Source: Alphaproteobacteria bacterium
GTDB lineage: Bacteria; Pseudomonadota; Alphaproteobacteria; Micropepsales; Micropepsaceae
DNA length: 64,000 nucleotides
Direction: 5' to 3'
Assembly: GCA_025350465.1 (NCBI GenBank)
Contig: JANXXU010000030.1
Coordinates: 124,001 to 188,000 of the forward strand
Shown here: piece by piece, positions 16,975-57,026 of the stretch
How positions within the stretch are numbered: position 1 is the first letter of the stretch
Layout of the letters: every line of letters starts with the position of its first letter
Program-made: the position numbers and the translations under genes
The notes under the pieces: model-generated
Seen by the model: the letters and a program-made list of their open reading frames with translations, nothing else
What the model was told of the DNA's origin: nothing
Database searches by the model: none

Positions 16975-17152
16975 CCCCTCGCCCTTCCATCTTTGGAAGG
17001 GAGAGGGGATGGGGGTGAGGGAAGACCGTGACGCTGTATGCGGACGATGTGATTTGCGCGAGCGTTTTCGCAAGGCTTCGATGTGCGCGGTGGCGCGACG
17101 CCCATCCCTCACCCCGGCCCTCTCCCTTCCCGAAAGTGGGAAGGGCGAGGGA
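16975..17152 (+). repeat. Composite palindromic repeat, family 1, copy A
   Basis: Two palindromes point at each other. The first (16975-17008) pairs CCCCTCGCCCTTCCA with TGGAAGGGAGAGGGG and is followed by GGGGGTGAGGG. The second begins CCCTCACCCC at 17106 and forms a stem from 17118 to 17151. The spacer includes TTGCGCGAGCG and a nearby TTCGCAAGGC. The same layout occurs at 34052-34233 and 56894-57026. It fills most of the 276 bases between the LLM oxidoreductase start and the CoA-transferase stop; nothing else is recognisable there except the flanks. Confidence 0.85.
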
Positions 17153-32365: not shown

Positions 32366-33121
32366 ATGCGCGCGTTGGCGATTCTCGTAGCATTCGTTGC
32401 AGCGTTGGCGGCCGCGGCCTTCGTCGGCAAGACGCAGCTTGAGGCCATGGCGAACGCCCACCCCGATGTTGCGGTGCGCGCCGGGAACGAAACCTATTTC
32501 ATTCCGGCGAAGCTCGTTCGCACCGACGGCTGGCGGACCGACTTGCTGCGCGTTGCAGGCTGCTGGGACGCGCGCGATGCGGCAATGGTCGCGGGCATCT
32601 CGTCGTTTGCGGGTTGCGACACGTCGCATCGCGTGCCGCTGGCGCTGCCGACGTCGATGTTCGGGCTCGATGTTGCGATGGGCATTCACAAGCCCGCCAT
32701 CGCCGCCACGTTCTGGCCGAATTATCAACCGCCCGCCGATCAGATGGCGCAGCTCGGCGAAGCATGGGCCGGACGCGGGGCGTGGGCCGGGCGGCGCTCG
32801 ATCCTGCGCGCGGACTGGCAGATGTGGCGCATCGAAACGCCAGCGAGCCCGTGGGTCTATCTGTTGTCGAACGTACCGCAGAAGGGTGACGCCGATGAGT
32901 TGCGCCAATTCTATGCCGGGCGTTGCTATCGGCCGGAGAAGGCGAGCGACGCGGGCATGACGTGCAGCTTCGCGCTTCATGTCGGCACGAGCGCGGTGCT
33001 CGAGTTCAACTTGGCGGCGGATGAAATGATGAGCTTCGTCTCGTTGCGCGAGGCGCTGATAGCGCGCGCGGGCGAATGGCGTAAAGCCCCGGTCAATGGA
33101 AGTTCCTCCCCTTCGGCATGA
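32366..33121 (+). CDS. Secreted or membrane-anchored protein of unknown function
   Basis: A 251-residue protein starting MRALAILVAFVAALAAAAFV, a signal peptide or N-terminal anchor. The body has four cysteines (AGCWDARDAA, FAGCDTS, GRCYRPE and MTCSFALH) that could form disulfides in the periplasm. I recognise no domain. GGGGGAGA lies directly before the ATG and supports this start over the one six codons upstream. The last 29 bases overlap the convergent dnaE2 gene. It follows DAHP synthase by 68 bases, with no clear functional link. Confidence 0.72.
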   Translation: MRALAILVAFVAALAAAAFVGKTQLEAMANAHPDVAVRAGNETYFIPAKLVRTDGWRTDLLRVAGCWDARDAAMVAGISSFAGCDTSHRVPLALPTSMFGLDVAMGIHKPAIAATFWPNYQPPADQMAQLGEAWAGRGAWAGRRSILRADWQMWRIETPASPWVYLLSNVPQKGDADELRQFYAGRCYRPEKASDAGMTCSFALHVGTSAVLEFNLAADEMMSFVSLREALIARAGEWRKAPVNGSSSPSA

Positions 33122-36100
33122 CGGTTTGCGCGCGCGGATGTTTGTAGAGCGCATTCTCGTCTACGGGCGGGGTGCGCGGTAGGCGCTTGCGTTTGGAATT
33201 GCGCTGGGCGCTGGGCGATCTGCCGTCCACGGGCACGGGATGCTTTACTTCGTCGGCGCGGGAGAGTGTGTCGATGGAGATGGCATCGGTTGAGAGGGTG
33301 CCCAGAAGCGGCGTCAGATCCTCGATCTGGTCAGCGACGATGTGAATGACCCCGCTTTCGCTTTGCAGCCGGCCCCGTACGCAGACGAAGCGACTGCCGA
33401 GGACGATGGGGCGGAAGCGCTCGAACATCTTCGGCCAGACGATGATGTTGGCAATGGAGGTTTCGTCTTCGAGCGTCATGAAGATCACGCCGCTCGCCGT
33501 GCCGGGGCGCTGACGAACCAAGACCAGGCCAGAGACCCTGACGCGCTGACCATTCGCGACCTTGACGAGATCGCCGTTGCGCAAGATGCGCCGCGCCTCC
33601 AGCTCGGCGCGCACGAAGGAAATGGGATGGGCCTTGAGCGAGAGACGGAGATGACGGTAGTCCTCGACCACATGCTCGCCGAGGAGCATCGGTGGCAGGG
33701 CGAAATCGGGTTCGCGCTCGCGTGCCGCTTCAAAGGCGAGCAAGGGGAGGTCGTCCTTGTCCCCCGAGCGGCGCAAACCGCGCACCACCCATAAGGCTTG
33801 GCGCCGATCGAGGCCGAGGGAGCGAAAGGCGTCGGCGTCGGCGAGGCGCTCGAGGGTGGACGGTTCAAGTCCGGTGCGCAGCCAGAGATCGCGGATCGAG
33901 TCGTAACCTTTGCCGCGGGCGCCCATGATTTTCTTGCCGTCGTCTTCCTTGAGCCCCGAAATCTCGCGAAAACCCAAGCGCATCGCGCAGGTCGTACGGA
34001 TTTCGTTTTGCATGGACGCGTGGCGCGGATGGAGGCGGCTCATATTCGACTCCCCTCTCTCTTCCGGAATCGGAAGGGAGAGGGGCTGGGGGTGAGGGAT
34101 GGCCGTCATACCGGAGTGATGACGCAATGAATCTTGCGCAAGCGCTTCGGCAAACTGATCCATCTGCAGATTGCATAACGACCTTCCCTCACCCCCATCC
34201 CCTCTCCTTTCCAGAAGGTGGAAGGGAGAGGGGGGCTCGAGCGTGTTGTCCCAATCGGAGTGGTTGATATCGACGGTGCGCATTTCGACGCCGTGTTCTT
34301 GGGCGTCGCGGACGATTTGGGCGGGGGCGTAGAAGCCCATGGGCTGCGAATTCAAAAGCGACGCCGCAAAGACGTCGGGGTAGTGGCATTTGATCCACGA
34401 AGAACAATAAACCAGCAGCGCGAAACTGGCGGCGTGGCTCTCGGGGAAACCGTAATCGCCGAAGCCTTTGATCTGATTGAAACAGGCGATGGCGAAATCG
34501 CGCTCGTAGCCGCGCGCCGTCATGCCGTTGATGAACTTGGCCTCGAAATGATGGATCGTGCCGTTACGGCGGAACGTGGCCATGGCACGGCGCAGCTTGT
34601 CGGCCTCCGCCGGCGTGAAGCCTGCGGCGACAATGGCGATGCGCATCGCCTGCTCCTGAAACAGCGGCACGCCAAGTGTTTTGTGCAGGACCTCTTCAAG
34701 TTCCTTTTTGGGATAAGAGACTTTTTCCAAACCTTGGCGACGCTTCAGATAGGGATGCACCATGCCGCCTTGGATCGGGCCGGGGCGCACGATCGCGACT
34801 TCGATGACGAGGTCGTAAAATACCCGCGGCTTCAATCGCGGCAGCATCGACATCTGGGCGCGGCTTTCGACCTGGAAGACGCCGATCGAGTCGGCGCGGC
34901 ACAGCATGTCGTAGACGGCGGGCTCGGCTTTCGGGATCGCTTCGAGGGCGAGAGGAAAGCCGCCGTAATGCGTGTCCAAGAATTGGAGCGCCTTGCGCAG
35001 ACACGACAACATGCCGAGCGCCAGGACATCGACCTTCAAGATGCCCAACGCGTCGAGATCATCCTTGTCCCATTCGACGAAGGTGCGGTCGTCCATCGCG
35101 GCGTTGCCGATGGGCACGACTTCGTCGAGCCGGTCGCGGGTCATGACGAAGCCGCCGACATGCTGGGAGAGATGGCGCGGGAATTCGATGAGCTCATTGG
35201 TTAGTTTGAGCGCTTGGCGCAGGCGCGGATCGGCGGGGTCGAGACCGGCGCGGCGCACCTCAGCATCGGCTGGACCTTCGGACGACCAACCCCAGAGGGT
35301 CGAAGCGAGTGCGCCGATTGCGTCTTGCGACAGACTAAAGGCCTTGCCGACATCGCGAATGGCGCTGCGGCCACGATAGCAGATGACTGTCGCGGCGATG
35401 CCGGCGCGCTCGCGGCCATAGCGCTCGTAAATATATTGCATCACCTCTTCGCGCCGCTCGTGCTCGAAATCGACGTCGATGTCGGGGGGCTCGCGCCTCT
35501 CGGCGGAAACGAAGCGCTCGAAGAGGAGATCGACTTCGACGGGATTCACTTCGGTCACGCCGAGGCAGTAGCAAATCACCGAATTCGCCGCCGAGCCGCG
35601 ACCCTGACAGAGGATGTTCTTTTTGCGCGCGTAGCGCACGATGTCGTGGACGGTGAGAAAATAAGGTGCGTAGTTCAATTCACCGATCAGCTTCAATTCG
35701 TGATCCAAGGCGTCGCGAGCTTTCTTCGGCACGCCGTCGGGATAACGTTTGAGCGCGCCTTGCTCGGTCAAGGCGATCAGCGCCTCTTGCGGCGTCGCGT
35801 AGCCTTCGCGCGTTTCCTCCGGATATTGGTAACGCAGTTCGTCGAGCGTGAAATTGCAGCGCGCCAGGAACCGTATCGTTTCGTCTATGGCGTCGGGCGC
35901 CCTGGCGAAGAGGCGCGCCATTTCATCGGGTGTTTTCAGATGGCGCTCGGCGTTCGCCTCCAAGCGAAAGCCGGCGGTGTCGATGGTGACGCCTTCGCGG
36001 ACGCAGGTGAGCACGTCCTGAAGCGGGCGGCGTTCGGGCGCGTGATAGAGGACGTCGCCGAGCGCGATCAGCGGCACGCGATAGCGCCGGCTCATATCGA

Positions 36101-36605
36101 TGAGGCGCGACAAATGCCTGCGATCGTCGCCGCGATAATGCATGGTCGCGCCGAGCCAGAGGCGGCCGGGGGCGATCGTTTGCAATTTTTGCAGCGCGGC
36201 TTCGGCGCGGTCGACGCGCGGGCGTGGCGGCATGACGATGAAGAGCAGGCCGTCATTCAACTGGGCGAGGTCTTCGAAATTCAGGATGCAATCCCCCTTC
36301 TTGGCGCGGCGATTGCCGAGGGTGAGCAGGCGCGAAAGGCGGCCATAGGCGGCGCGGTCGGATGGGTAGGCTAGAATATCGGGCGTGCCGTCACTGAAGA
36401 CGAGACGGGCGCCGACGACCAAGCGGAAATTCAAATCGCGCGCTTGGGTGAAGGCGCGCACGACGCCGGACAACGTGTTGCGATCGGCGACGCCGATGGC
36501 GGCGAGATCGAGAGCGGCTGCGCGTGCGACAAATTCTTGGGGATGCGAACCGCCGCGCAGAAACGAAAAATTCGTGGTGACGGCGAGTTCAGCGTAGGAG
36601 GGCAT
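33093..36605 (-). CDS. dnaE2: Error-prone DNA polymerase III alpha-type (DnaE2) with in-frame repeat insertion
   Basis: A 1170-residue C-family polymerase used in damage-induced mutagenesis with ImuA and ImuB. The N-terminal PHP domain starts [20 protein letters not shown]; the polymerase core contains [20 protein letters not shown] and [20 protein letters not shown] with the catalytic Asp pair, then [20 protein letters not shown]. A C-terminal OB fold has [20 protein letters not shown]. Between [10 protein letters not shown] (E790) and CAMRLGFRE (from residue 873) there are about 82 residues where relatives carry only a short linker. Most of this (34052-34233) is a dispersed palindromic repeat read in frame, so the protein is longer than the usual 1000-1100. 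The 3' end overlaps the gene at 32366 by 29 bases. imuB lies 157 bases upstream, separated by another repeat. Confidence 0.95.
   Translation of the reverse strand: [1170 protein letters not shown]
34052..34233 (-). repeat. Composite palindromic repeat, family 1, copy B, embedded in dnaE2
   Basis: In plus-strand terms the first palindrome (34052-34085) pairs CCCCTCTCTCTTCCG with CGGAAGGGAGAGGGG and is followed by GGGGGTGAGGG. The second (about 34199-34233) is preceded by CCCTCACCCCC. The spacer has TTGCGCAAGCGCTTCGGCAA, matching TTGCGCGAGCG and its flank in copy A. It is translated as residues of about 791-852 of DnaE2 with no stop codon. Confidence 0.85.
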
Positions 36606-36619
36606 GACTACGCCCCTTC

Positions 36620-36753
36620 TTTCCTCCCCCGCGGGGCGGGGGAGGTGTCGCGCGTCGCGCGACGGAGGGGGGATCTAAATGCGGCGCTCCTCCACTTCCC
36701 CTCTCCGACCTCACTTCGTTCGGCCACCTCCCCCGTGAGTACGGGGGAGGAAA
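36620..36753. repeat. Terminal-inverted-repeat element, family 2, copy 1 (imuB-dnaE2 junction)
   Basis: A 134-base element bounded by TTTCCTCCCCC (36620-36630) and its exact inverse GGGGGAGGAAA (36743-36753). Inside are GCGGGGCGGGGGAGGTGTCG, GACGGAGGGGGGAT and CCACCTCCCCCGTGAG. A nearly identical element of 135 bases lies at 40349-40483. It fills the space between imuB and dnaE2, which in many genomes are almost adjacent. Confidence 0.8.
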
Positions 36754-36762
36754 GATGGGCGC

Positions 36763-40334: not shown

Positions 40335-40348
40335 GCGTTTCTTCCTTC

Positions 40349-40483
40349 TTTCCTCACCCGCGGGGCGGGGGAGGTGTCGCTGGAGGCGACGGAGGGGGGA
40401 TTTAAAGACGAGGTTCTGACTTACCCCCTCCGTCACTTCGCCTTCGGCTCGTGCCACCTCCCCCGTGAGAACAGGGGAGGAAA
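40349..40483. repeat. Terminal-inverted-repeat element, family 2, copy 2 (between two MDR genes)
   Basis: A 135-base element bounded by TTTCCTCACCC (40349-40359) and GGGGAGGAAA (40474-40483). It shares GCGGGGCGGGGGAGGTGTCG, GACGGAGGGGGGAT and CCACCTCCCCCGTGAG with copy 1 at 36620-36753. The two copies differ mostly in the middle. It fills the junction between the tandem reductase genes. Confidence 0.8.
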
Positions 40484-40489
40484 GAATGC

Positions 40490-42688: not shown

Positions 42689-43844
42689 TGCTGCAAAGCC
42701 CGTCGCGGCCGCATCCGCGGCCGACGATGCTCCGATTCTGTTTTTCGACCTGAAGACGCAAGCCAAGCGGTTGCGCGCCGATATCGAGCAGCGCTTGATG
42801 CGCATCCTCGACCACGGCGCCTATATCGGTGGGCCTGAAGTCGCGGAGGTCGAAGCCAAGCTCGCGGCGCATGCCGGCGCCAAACATGCGCTTGCCGTCG
42901 CCAGCGGCACGGACGCGCTCGTCATCGCGCTGATGGGCGAAGATATCGGGCCGGGCGATGCGGTCTTTATCCCGGGCTTCACGTACAACGCGACCTGCAA
43001 CGCGGTGATCCTGTCCGGGGCGACGCCGGTCTTCGTCGATGTCGATCCGCACACTTGCAATATCGACCTGAAACACCTGGAAGCGCAGATCGAAATGACG
43101 TTGCGCGACGGCAAGCTCAAGCCGCGCAAGGTCATCGCCGTCGATCTCTATGGCTTGCCCGCCGACTATGCCGCGCTCAACAAACTCGCCGCCAAGCACG
43201 GCATGCTGATCCTGGCGGACGCGGCGCAAAGTCTGGGCGGCGCGCAGGGCGGCAAGCATGTCGGCGCGCTGACAGATATGTCGGCCACGAGCTTCTATCC
43301 GTCGAAGACCGTCGGCGCCTATGGCGACGGCGGCGCGATGTTCACCGACGACGCGGCGCGCTTCGAACGCTGGTCGTCCATCCGCTGGCACGGCACGGAC
43401 GCCGCGAAAAGGGAATCCATCCGGGTCGGGATCAACGGGCGGCTCGACTCCATGCAATGCGCGGTCGTGCTCTCCAAGCTCACGATTTTCGACGACGAGA
43501 TGAAGGCGCGCCATCGCATCGCCAAGCGCTATCGCGAAGGGCTCGGCAACGCGGTCGAGCTGCAGCATGTGCCGCTCGGAACCGAGAGCGCCTGGGGACT
43601 GTTCACGGTCCAGGTCGACAATCGCGAGGCGGTCCAAAAGCGCCTGACGGACGCCGGCGTTCCGACCTCGATCTACTATTTCAAAGGGTTGCACGAACAC
43701 CGCGCCTTTGCGCGCTTTGCGCCGAAGGGCGGCCTGCCCGTGTGCGAGCGGCTGGCGACGCGGGTACTAAGCCTGCCGATGCACCCTTATTTGAACGACC
43801 GCCAACTTGACCGCGTGATCGGCGCGGTCAAAGCTGCGGTATGA
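42678..43844 (+). CDS. DegT/DnrJ/EryC1/StrS family aminotransferase
   Basis: A 388-residue PLP enzyme. It shows FFDLKTQAKRLRADIEQRLM, GGPEVAEVEAKLAAHAGAKH, VASGTDALVIALMGEDIGPG, DAAQSLGGAQGGKHVG and the PLP Lys (K210) in SFYPSKTVGAYGDGG. These are classic nucleotide-sugar aminotransferase motifs (the WbpE/PglE type). It would transfer an amino group from glutamate to a keto-sugar made by the neighbouring dehydrogenase. The ATG at 42678 is preferred over one nine codons upstream; it overlaps the previous gene by 11 bases. No glycosyltransferase is nearby. Confidence 0.9.
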   Translation: MPHNAAKPVAAASAADDAPILFFDLKTQAKRLRADIEQRLMRILDHGAYIGGPEVAEVEAKLAAHAGAKHALAVASGTDALVIALMGEDIGPGDAVFIPGFTYNATCNAVILSGATPVFVDVDPHTCNIDLKHLEAQIEMTLRDGKLKPRKVIAVDLYGLPADYAALNKLAAKHGMLILADAAQSLGGAQGGKHVGALTDMSATSFYPSKTVGAYGDGGAMFTDDAARFERWSSIRWHGTDAAKRESIRVGINGRLDSMQCAVVLSKLTIFDDEMKARHRIAKRYREGLGNAVELQHVPLGTESAWGLFTVQVDNREAVQKRLTDAGVPTSIYYFKGLHEHRAFARFAPKGGLPVCERLATRVLSLPMHPYLNDRQLDRVIGAVKAAV

Positions 43845-44320
43845 TTTGGAAAGTTTTCGCAGTGCTCGCATTGACGCTAACGCCCACTGCCGCGGCGATG
43901 GCGGACGGCGTTCAGAGCGAGATCGACATCGAGATCCTGATCGGCCGCACCGAAGTGATGCACGATCAGACGGCGCGCGGGCTCGCGCTCTTCGGCGTGA
44001 CACGGACCTCGCCTGACGGCGAGCAATTTCTCCCTGCCGACCCGAACCGCAACCAATACTCGCGCCTCACCGATGCCGTCGTGCGCTACAACAATCTGCG
44101 CGACCTCGCCTGCGGCAGCCGCGTCATCTCTCATCCGTTATGTTTCGAGCAGCACTTCATGCCGCTGTGGTACGCAGGGCGCGCGCGGCCCGACACGTCG
44201 CCAGACGGTATGCGGCGCATGGCGGAAGATATGCAGAACCAAACCGTGCCGCTATGGACGGCCGTCTGCGAGCGCGCCCAAGCCCGCAGCGGCGACAAGG
44301 ATTTCTGCGCCATCGAATGA
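43841..44320 (+). CDS. Secreted protein of unknown function
   Basis: A 159-residue protein beginning MIWKVFAVLALTLTPTAAAM, a Sec signal peptide. The mature part has three regularly spaced cysteines in LACGSRVISHPLCFEQHF and AVCERAQARSG plus a terminal FCAIE, consistent with disulfides in the periplasm. I recognise no domain. The start overlaps the DegT aminotransferase stop by 4 bases, so it is translated from the same transcript, but a link to the sugar pathway is not evident. The 187 bases that follow contain no gene I can support. Confidence 0.7.
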   Translation: MIWKVFAVLALTLTPTAAAMADGVQSEIDIEILIGRTEVMHDQTARGLALFGVTRTSPDGEQFLPADPNRNQYSRLTDAVVRYNNLRDLACGSRVISHPLCFEQHFMPLWYAGRARPDTSPDGMRRMAEDMQNQTVPLWTAVCERAQARSGDKDFCAIE

Positions 44321-45418: not shown

Positions 45419-46819
45419 ATGTTTCCTGATCCACATCACGCAGCCAAGCACTCGAGCGTGCTGACGATGGTGGCGGTGGTTCTGGCCGTCGCGCTCGCCG
45501 GGTGCGCCACTCAGGATCTTTCAACGCCGGTCAACCAACCCGTGGCGGAGACCGTCCAGCCGCAGCCGCCCGGCCTCGACGGCGATGGCGACATCATCGC
45601 GCTCTCGTTCTCGGGAGGCGGCGCACGCGCGGCGGCATTCTCGTTCGGCGTGTTGCAAGGCCTTCGCGCTATGCCCGACGCGGGTGGCGGCTCGCTCCTC
45701 GATCGCGTGGCGCTGGTGTCGGCGGTTTCGGGCGGGGCGATCACCGCGGCTTATTTCGGCCAACGCGGCGGCGAAGGGTTGGATTCGTTTCGCACCGATT
45801 ATCTCGACAAGGATTGGGCTTCCGAACTTCACACCAGTCTGGCTTCGCCCGTGAACTGGGCTCGCGCTTATGACGGGGCGTTGAACGAGCGCGACCGTCT
45901 TGGCGATTGGCTCAACGCCGAGGTGTTCCGGGACGGTACCGTCGCGGATTTGTGGCGGAGCGGCCGCCCGCGCATCTGGATCAATGCGACGGACCTCTAT
46001 AGCGGCGTACCGTTCGCGTTCGTTCCGCTCTATTTCGACGCGCTGTGCAGCGATCTTGCGCGCGTTCGCATCGCCGACGCGGTTGCGGCATCGATGTCGG
46101 TGCCGGTCGTGTTCCGGCCGGTCGTCGTGGCGTCGTATGCGGAGCAATGCAAGATGCCGTTGCCCGATTGGGTGGCGAAGGCGGCGCACGACCGGCAAGC
46201 TTCGGAGCTTTTGCGCGTGACCGCGCGCGCTCTGGAAAGCTATCGCGATCCGAGCCGTGTGCGATTTCTGCATCTCGTCGACGGCGGTGTGGCCGACAAT
46301 TTCGGCCTCTCAAGCCTTATCCTAATGCGGCACGCCGCAACGACGCCGTTCGCGCCATTGACGGCGCGCGACGCGGTTCGCGTGCGGCGCATGACTTTTC
46401 TGGTGATCAACGCGGAACAAAGTCCGTCGGGCGGCTGGTCGTTGACGCCGGAAGGGCCCAATGGCGTCGAGACACTCTCGGCCGCGATGGACGGATCGAT
46501 CAACCTCAACAAGCGCCGGGCATACGATGCCTTTCGCGATACGATCGCCAGCTGGGAGCGCGATGTGCGCCGCTATCGCTGCTCGCTACCGAAAGAGGAG
46601 GCCGCGCGGCTGGCCGAGGGGATCAAAAATTGGAACTGCGGCAACGTGCGGTTCGCGGTCGACATGATTTCGTTCGCGGATCTCGACGCCAAGCTCGGCG
46701 CGCGCCTCGCCGCCGCGCCAACGCGCGTCAGCTTGCCGGCGGACCTTATCGACGCGCTGATCGAAGGCGGTGTAGATGCCGTCAAAGCCAACCGCGGCGC
46801 GCGCTTGCTGAGCCGCTGA
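45419..46819 (+). CDS. Patatin-like phospholipase, lipoprotein
   Basis: A 466-residue protein. MVAVVLAVALAGCATQDLST is a lipoprotein signal with lipobox LAGC. The patatin domain has the oxyanion motif LSFSGGGARAAAFSFGVL, the nucleophile Ser104 in SAVSGGAITAAYFG and the acid Asp288 in LVDGGVADNFGLSS, so the Ser-Asp dyad is complete. It should hydrolyse phospholipid or another acyl ester at the membrane surface. A strong intrinsic terminator follows the stop codon. The convergent HxlR gene begins its 3' end inside that terminator. Confidence 0.9.
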   Translation: MFPDPHHAAKHSSVLTMVAVVLAVALAGCATQDLSTPVNQPVAETVQPQPPGLDGDGDIIALSFSGGGARAAAFSFGVLQGLRAMPDAGGGSLLDRVALVSAVSGGAITAAYFGQRGGEGLDSFRTDYLDKDWASELHTSLASPVNWARAYDGALNERDRLGDWLNAEVFRDGTVADLWRSGRPRIWINATDLYSGVPFAFVPLYFDALCSDLARVRIADAVAASMSVPVVFRPVVVASYAEQCKMPLPDWVAKAAHDRQASELLRVTARALESYRDPSRVRFLHLVDGGVADNFGLSSLILMRHAATTPFAPLTARDAVRVRRMTFLVINAEQSPSGGWSLTPEGPNGVETLSAAMDGSINLNKRRAYDAFRDTIASWERDVRRYRCSLPKEEAARLAEGIKNWNCGNVRFAVDMISFADLDAKLGARLAAAPTRVSLPADLIDALIEGGVDAVKANRGARLLSR

Positions 46820-46820
46820 A

Positions 46821-46851
46821 CGCCGCCGACCTCAGGCGGCGAGTTTTTTTT
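46821..46851 (+). terminator. Rho-independent terminator of the patatin gene
   Basis: CGCCGCC and GGCGGCG form a 7-base GC stem around GACCTCA, followed by A and G then eight T residues on the plus strand. It starts one base after the patatin stop codon. The HxlR stop codon (46832-46834) lies in its loop, and the T-run is read on the other strand as the Lys-rich C-terminus of HxlR. Confidence 0.88.
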
Positions 46852-47530
46852 CCTTGGCGAAGGGGCTGAGGCCCAGCCATGCTTGCATGTTCGAGGCGAG
46901 TTGCTTGTCGCCGACGAGTCTTATGCGCTCGTCGCTGACGGCCTTACGTACCATATCCAGGCCCATCCAGATCGCGGTCATCGTCTTCAGATCGCTCGTG
47001 ACGTAGAGGTCGACGTCGAACCCCGGATCGACGGAGCAGAGGTCTATGCCCTCGGCGGGTGTAACGATCAGCCACCAATTGCGCTGGCCCTGTGGCGCGT
47101 CGGTATAAAGATATTGGATCGTGCTGCGCCGCTTCGGTAGCGGCGTGGTATCGAGGCTGCGCCGCATGTCCCACATCAAGAGCGAGACATCGAGATTCTG
47201 CAGCGATAGCTTCGTTTCGATCCAGCGCTGGCCCCACACGCCGAAACCTTCGATGAGCGGCTGCAGCTCGCGTCCGGACCGCGTCAGGTGATATTCGAAG
47301 ACGCCGGGCTCGGACTTGGACTTGACGCGCGTCAGGACGCCTGAGTGCTCCAGCTCCTTGAGGCGCTGCGACAGCAAGGCGGGCGACATGCGCGGCACGC
47401 CGCGGCGCAAATCGTTGAAGCGTGTCGAACCCGCGATCATCTCGCGCAGCAAGACGACGGTCCAGCGCGTGCACAGAATCTCGGCCGCCATCGCGACCGG
47501 ACAGAATTGCTTGTAGCTGCCTTGCGTCAC
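46832..47530 (-). CDS. HxlR family transcriptional regulator with C-terminal SCP2-like domain
   Basis: A 232-residue protein. The N-terminal winged helix (about residues 5-105) has FCPVAMAAEILCTRWTVVLL, FNDLRRGVPRMSPALLSQRL and LEHSGVLTRVKSKSEPGVFE, typical HxlR sequence. The remaining 120 residues (LYTDAPQGQRNWWLIVTPAE, VTSDLKTMTAIWMGLDMVRK) look like the sterol-carrier-like domain found in longer HxlR proteins. Such regulators often respond to oxidants or small molecules. It is divergent from the SRPBCC gene, which may be a target, with 177 bases between them. Confidence 0.87.
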   Translation of the reverse strand: MTQGSYKQFCPVAMAAEILCTRWTVVLLREMIAGSTRFNDLRRGVPRMSPALLSQRLKELEHSGVLTRVKSKSEPGVFEYHLTRSGRELQPLIEGFGVWGQRWIETKLSLQNLDVSLLMWDMRRSLDTTPLPKRRSTIQYLYTDAPQGQRNWWLIVTPAEGIDLCSVDPGFDVDLYVTSDLKTMTAIWMGLDMVRKAVSDERIRLVGDKQLASNMQAWLGLSPFAKEKKLAA

Positions 47531-56893: not shown

Positions 56894-57026
56894 CCCCTCG
56901 CTCTTCCATCTTTGGAAGGGAGAGGGGCCGGGGGTGAGGGAAGGCCGACGCGTCCGGCGCTCGATGCGGCTTGACGCCCATCCCTCACCCGATCCCTCTC
57001 CCTTCCCGAAGGGGGAAGGGCAAGGG
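56894..57026 (+). repeat. Composite palindromic repeat, family 1, copy C (shortened)
   Basis: First palindrome (56894-56927): CCCCTCGCTCTTCCA pairs with TGGAAGGGAGAGGGG and is followed by GGGGGTGAGGG. It differs from the first arm of copy A by a single base. Second palindrome (56994-57026) is preceded by CCCTCACCC. The spacer is only about 40 bases, shorter than in copies A and B. It lies between nadE and gltX, ending about 20 bases before the gltX GTG. Confidence 0.83.

Follow-up and report, generated by a model that had tools for sequence, protein, structure and literature searches.

Three copies of a composite palindromic unit (A, B and C) lie in a 64,000-nt stretch of DNA, referred to here as the window (positions 124001-188000 of contig 44 of the genome assembly). 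The first-pass annotation had proposed that the unit is a REP/BIME-like element mobilised in trans, which raised two questions: to which repeat family does the unit belong, and how did its copies multiply?

The repeated unit and its copies in the genome

The three composite copies were present at the coordinates claimed (Table 1), and the first arms of copies A and C differed by one base, as had been noted. The right inner arm of copy C had been misread; it ended in CCCTCACCCG, not in CCCTCACCCC.

Table 1. Copies of the unit in the window and the genes next to or around them.
Feature	Position in the window	Strand	Remarks
Copy A, left half	16975..17021	+	pyrimidine arm, loop, purine arm GGAAGGGAGAGGGG, linker, third strand GGGGTGAGGG
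Copy A, spacer	17022..17105		84 nt; length conserved, sequence weakly
Copy A, right half	17106..17152	-	inverted; unit adjoins the start of an LLM-class oxidoreductase gene
Copy B, left half	34052..34098	+	
Copy B, spacer	34099..34185		87 nt
Copy B, right half	34186..34233	-	
dnaE2	33093..36605	-	error-prone DNA polymerase (1170 aa) with copy B in frame inside it
Copy C, left half	56894..56940	+	
Copy C, spacer	56941..56981		41 nt; shortened
Copy C, right half	56982..57026	-	
Copy C, whole unit			between nadE (ends 56853) and gltX (starts 57047)

The unit consisted of two G-rich hairpins facing each other across a spacer and mostly measured 170-185 bp. Its termini were consistent (TCWCCCCTC...GAGGGGWGA) and formed the terminal inverted repeats expected of a miniature inverted-repeat element (MITE). 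A DNA search of the genome with copy A recovered relatives over its whole length, about 71-83% identical to it and with E values down to 1e-45, and the long match to copy B was stronger in reverse orientation. The aligned units had the arms, the inner motifs and the spacer length in common. The spacer had been called conserved; this held for its length, which was 77-90 nt in 27 regular copies, but its sequence was only weakly kept, and the spacer of copy C spanned only about 41 nt. The claim that the whole unit of about 180 bp is what was repeated was borne out by about 33 copies in the genome.

To count the half-sites, we searched the 4.06 Mb genome (52 contigs) with the pattern GAGAGGN{2,7}GGGTGAGGG and used the reversed pattern as the control. 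There were 68 exact matches, split 35 to 33 between the two strands, and none of the reversed control; the repetition of the half-site is therefore not due to chance. Nearly all half-sites were paired: we counted 33 facing pairs, two unpaired half-sites and one truncated near a contig end. By heuristic placement, the copies were mostly located between genes. On contig 37 (G000), there were two cases of highly similar neighbouring copies, which lay 225 and 524 bp apart (43684-44092 and 46547-47252), as if they had arisen by local duplication.

The possibility that the spacer encodes a conserved structured RNA was rejected, as the spacer alone folded no better than its shuffles (mean z of -0.11, 27 copies). 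The RNAalifold consensus structure of the aligned units was confined almost wholly to the arms, and an Rfam search of the window returned a tRNA only.

BoxC/PIT identity and covariation of the third strand

The BoxC repeat of E. coli was later given the names PIT and TM_ECO (Hoyne et al. 2000 and 2002, cited in PMC4666352). Previous work has reported 23 copies of the motif in MG1655, all intergenic and including five facing pairs of two types (Holder et al. 2015, PMC4666352), and the intrastrand-triplex motif has been reported in more than 260 genomes, with triplex folding shown on oligonucleotides of the E. coli motif (PMC4666352). In the present study, each half of the unit had the same core, CCCTC(T/G)CCC-loop-GGGAGAGGG-linker-GGGTGAGGG, that is, a pyrimidine arm, the purine arm GGGAGAGGG, a short linker and the near-mirror third strand GGGTGAGGG. 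Judged by its sequence, each half is a BoxC/PIT intrastrand-triplex motif, and the element is the BoxC/PIT unit in paired form. The first-pass annotation had recognised the hairpins and the composite unit and had missed this identity. The facing arrangement, which is reported for a subset of the E. coli copies and does not define the motif, was also found here, and both repeats form facing pairs of two types. In contrast to MG1655, with its five facing pairs among 23 copies, nearly every copy here was paired, and the spacer was regular and longer. The stem and the third strand were also longer than those of E. coli BoxC: in the window copies, the mirror relation extended over the purine arm GGAAGGGAGAGGGG and the third strand GGGGTGAGGGA(A/T)GG, from which the left half of copy A departed at its end. 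We conclude that the element is a lineage-specific paired form of an already known repeat.

A third strand placed in the stem groove predicts that the bases extending the stem co-vary, in mirror order, with those extending the third strand. We examined this prediction in 218 distinct half-sites from 56 taxa, which were drawn from relatives, a wider scan, E. coli and the source genome. At the first position, with each taxon-combination counted once, the combinations were G/G 25, G/non-G 2, non-G/G 2 and non-G/non-G 19 (Fisher p = 3e-9). Most of the non-G pairings at this position were A/T or C/T, both of which are acceptable third-strand choices in purine-motif triplexes. When one half-site was drawn at random per taxon, 71% of positions fitted the pairing code, compared with 44% (maximum 57%) when the third strands were dealt randomly; both results are subject to residual relatedness of the taxa, to C-with-C cases at position 2 and to the choice of the code, which followed an initial inspection of the data. 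Such mirror symmetry is expected neither from direct or inverted duplication nor from pairing of the facing halves. These results demonstrated covariation of stem and third strand over many taxa in the manner demanded by an antiparallel purine triplex, which indirectly supports the view that the copies described here may form intrastrand triplexes.

A second palindromic repeat family was observed in the window in two copies (36614-36755 and 40343-40485). It consists of CCTCCCCCGC...GCGGGGGAGG, a small hairpin and then GGAGGGGG, facing CCTCCCCCGTGAG.ACGGGGGAGG. Since GGGGGAGG and GGAGGGGG are mirror images, this family may be a triplex-type motif too.

Distribution, element-free sites and decay

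Among the matches listed by a wider scan, in which the pattern restricted the spacer to 68-92 nt, facing pairs were found in records labelled as Alpha-, Beta- and Gammaproteobacteria, Planctomycetes, Chloroflexi, Cyanobacteria, Spirochaetia, Archangium, Acidobacteria and others, with the reservation that some single matches in metagenome-assembled genomes could come from misbinned contigs. The strict pair occurred in 8 of 61 sampled genomes, the source genome included, and the spacers differed between genera. The search with copy A gave no match in the closest congener compared (G001) and only arm-length matches in the other congeners. Carriage by phages was rare, with 11 motif stretches in 2.9 million viral contigs.

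Most of the window was collinear with the corresponding region of G001, in the main at 75-84% identity. At site A, G001 had about 70 bp compared with about 340 bp here and was without the element. Site C of G001 was also without it and had different, longer content; the gap between nadE and gltX (contig 16, L280) held about 450 bp of unrelated gene-like sequence. The first-pass annotation had staked its proposal on further copies in the genome and empty sites in relatives, and both were found: the copies number about 33, and congeners have element-free sites.

That annotation had located copy B correctly and had overlooked its position inside a coding gene. The dnaE2 frame scored 1434 bits against the error-prone DNA polymerase model (cut-off of 939), and copy B added about 60 residues between the DnaE2 finger domain and the HHH domain. 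Three congeners (G002, G003 and G004) had a short linker at this place, which represents the empty site for copy B; the insertion is thus in frame in a conserved gene and absent from the orthologues, as a single case. At the same point in dnaE2, G001 carried a different palindromic repeat, and three further genomes (G005, G011 and G018) carried other hairpin-forming inserts in the linker. When the linker of the window (about 34040-34240) was compared with the orthologues L218, L219, L223, L230 and L232, differing extra segments were observed, mostly hairpin-forming. The variety of these inserts across relatives indicates a tolerated landing place, or hot spot, for in-frame palindromic elements, and the dnaE2 copy suggests tolerance rather than use.

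In layout, this copy resembles the Rickettsia palindromic elements (PMC2229807), in which a palindromic unit with an open frame lies in frame in a conserved protein gene; unlike those elements, only one clear intragenic copy was found here, and unlike BoxC in MG1655, where all copies are intergenic, there was one. Many copies had an open frame, and dnaE2 was the sole clearly internal case. Frequent in-frame insertion was considered and rejected: several other open reading frames crossing the element stopped shortly beyond it and could be products of the simple ORF calling used.

Deletions at copies of the motif have been reported previously (PMC4666352), and E. coli alleles illustrated how a pair is lost. 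In strains Ecol_743 and HB42, the alx-sstT pair had undergone a 75-bp slippage deletion between direct CCCTCTCCC repeats, which left one hairpin and kept both outer flanks; the differences at ygfF-gcvP consisted of a 6-bp deletion and of larger losses. In strain YZ3-11, a longer unrelated segment had replaced the region of the alx-sstT BoxC pair (L307-L310 compared). Filled and empty E. coli alleles at these two loci showed no clean insertion, only deletions and replaced segments. The source genome contained solo hairpins similar to the E. coli deletion product, and spacers were shortened in copy C and in the copy at C31:99343. Decay by internal deletion to one hairpin was thus seen in E. coli, and we infer it for the source genome.

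How the paired unit may have multiplied

Taken together, we consider it probable that the paired BoxC/PIT repeat is one non-autonomous, MITE-like unit that multiplied in this lineage by means of a mover acting in trans. This reading is based on the roughly 33 whole pairs, the lack of any match in the closest congener compared, the element-free sites A and B, the dnaE2 copy and the covariation. On the other side, neither a mover nor a target duplication was found, the E. coli alleles showed no insertion, no fresh insertion event was seen directly, and the uneven distribution could reflect loss instead of gain. According to the proposed mechanism, each half, once in single-stranded form (as on the lagging strand, for instance), would fold into a triplex hairpin, and the two folded halves would pair into a cruciform. 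A trans-acting enzyme would then copy or join the folded strand, leaving no target duplication, and the copies would decay by slippage between the direct CCCTCTCCC repeats to a single hairpin. The distribution can be explained without a physiological role.

A broader form of this proposal is tentative, and we think it rather unlikely. It holds that paired BoxC/PIT is a mobile family of several bacterial phyla, that it moves as a single strand whose halves are folded into facing intrastrand triplexes and that a putative enzyme recognises the triplex itself, which would be why the triplex co-varies across phyla while the spacers drift.

The unit might instead be an internal-deletion derivative of an ordinary DNA transposon, with the arms as the terminal inverted repeats on which the transposase of that element acts. 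The consistent inverted termini fit this, and so does the likeness to bacterial MITEs (reviewed in PMC2229807), which measure 100-200 bp, have inverted termini and lack a gene of their own. In contrast to bacterial MITEs, neither a related transposase nor a target duplication was found for the unit; the value for direct repeats in the flanks was 4.76, compared with 4.80 in shuffles. In a partial look at the DNA between facing halves, no transposase gene was seen, and three long-spaced units inspected in the source genome gave no obvious candidate for an autonomous version. Furthermore, the spacers were unrelated between genera, although the arms were kept over several phyla. We therefore regard this origin as improbable.

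It is less probable still that the unit is not a selfish repeat but a structural or regulatory site that selection keeps and re-creates, serving for instance a DNA-binding protein, replication pausing or RNA processing. The conserved core, the triplex covariation over several phyla and the mostly intergenic (heuristic) placement are consistent with such a site. Its very uneven spread over the sampled genomes and the tolerance suggested by dnaE2 argue against it, as does earlier work on the E. coli copies, in which neither promoter or terminator effects nor an effect on polymerase in vivo were observed (as reported in PMC4666352).

The mover envisaged in the first-pass annotation was a REP-associated tyrosine transposase (RAYT, a Y1 HUH transposase). 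With REP, BIME and REPIN elements and their RAYTs (PMC2817692, PMC3116915), the unit shares short extragenic palindromes, facing pairs as in the REPIN layout and many copies per genome, and the recommended search for a RAYT gene did return one Y1_Tnp protein in the source genome. This protein scored 56.5 bits against the RAYT model, under the cut-off of 80. It read PNQVH instead of PNHVH (L065 1459-2130, G000 contig 33), whereas all relatives with a recognisable form of this protein motif had HVH, and is possibly inactive judging from this substitution. No BoxC/PIT motif was found near any of 33 distinct Y1_Tnp loci in the source genome and relatives, and no RAYT was flanked by two inverted copies of the element (flanks up to about 1.5 kb in both cases). 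In a small sample of genomes of the family, searched at family level with Pfam, Y1_Tnp was present in 4 of the 8 that carried the element and in 13 of the 29 that lacked it, which indicated no association. Inspection of the aligned copies against PMC2817692 gave no GT(A/G)G head at the palindrome, and a literature search on REP and RAYT in Alphaproteobacteria returned nothing. REP/RAYT membership was thus unsupported, and we rejected RAYT as the likely mover, considering a REPIN-type element mobilised by such an enzyme the least probable of these explanations.

The cited work does not explain how BoxC/PIT motifs, known for decades, multiply. With the reading of the paired repeat as a probable MITE-like unit, the source genome offers abundant lineage-specific whole units, one of them intragenic, together with element-free sites in relatives. 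The evidence against RAYT narrows the search for the enzyme. New here are the covariation of third strand and stem, the in-frame copy in dnaE2 and the facing-pair geometry in several phyla; the covariation across many taxa is evidence of constraint on the third strand.
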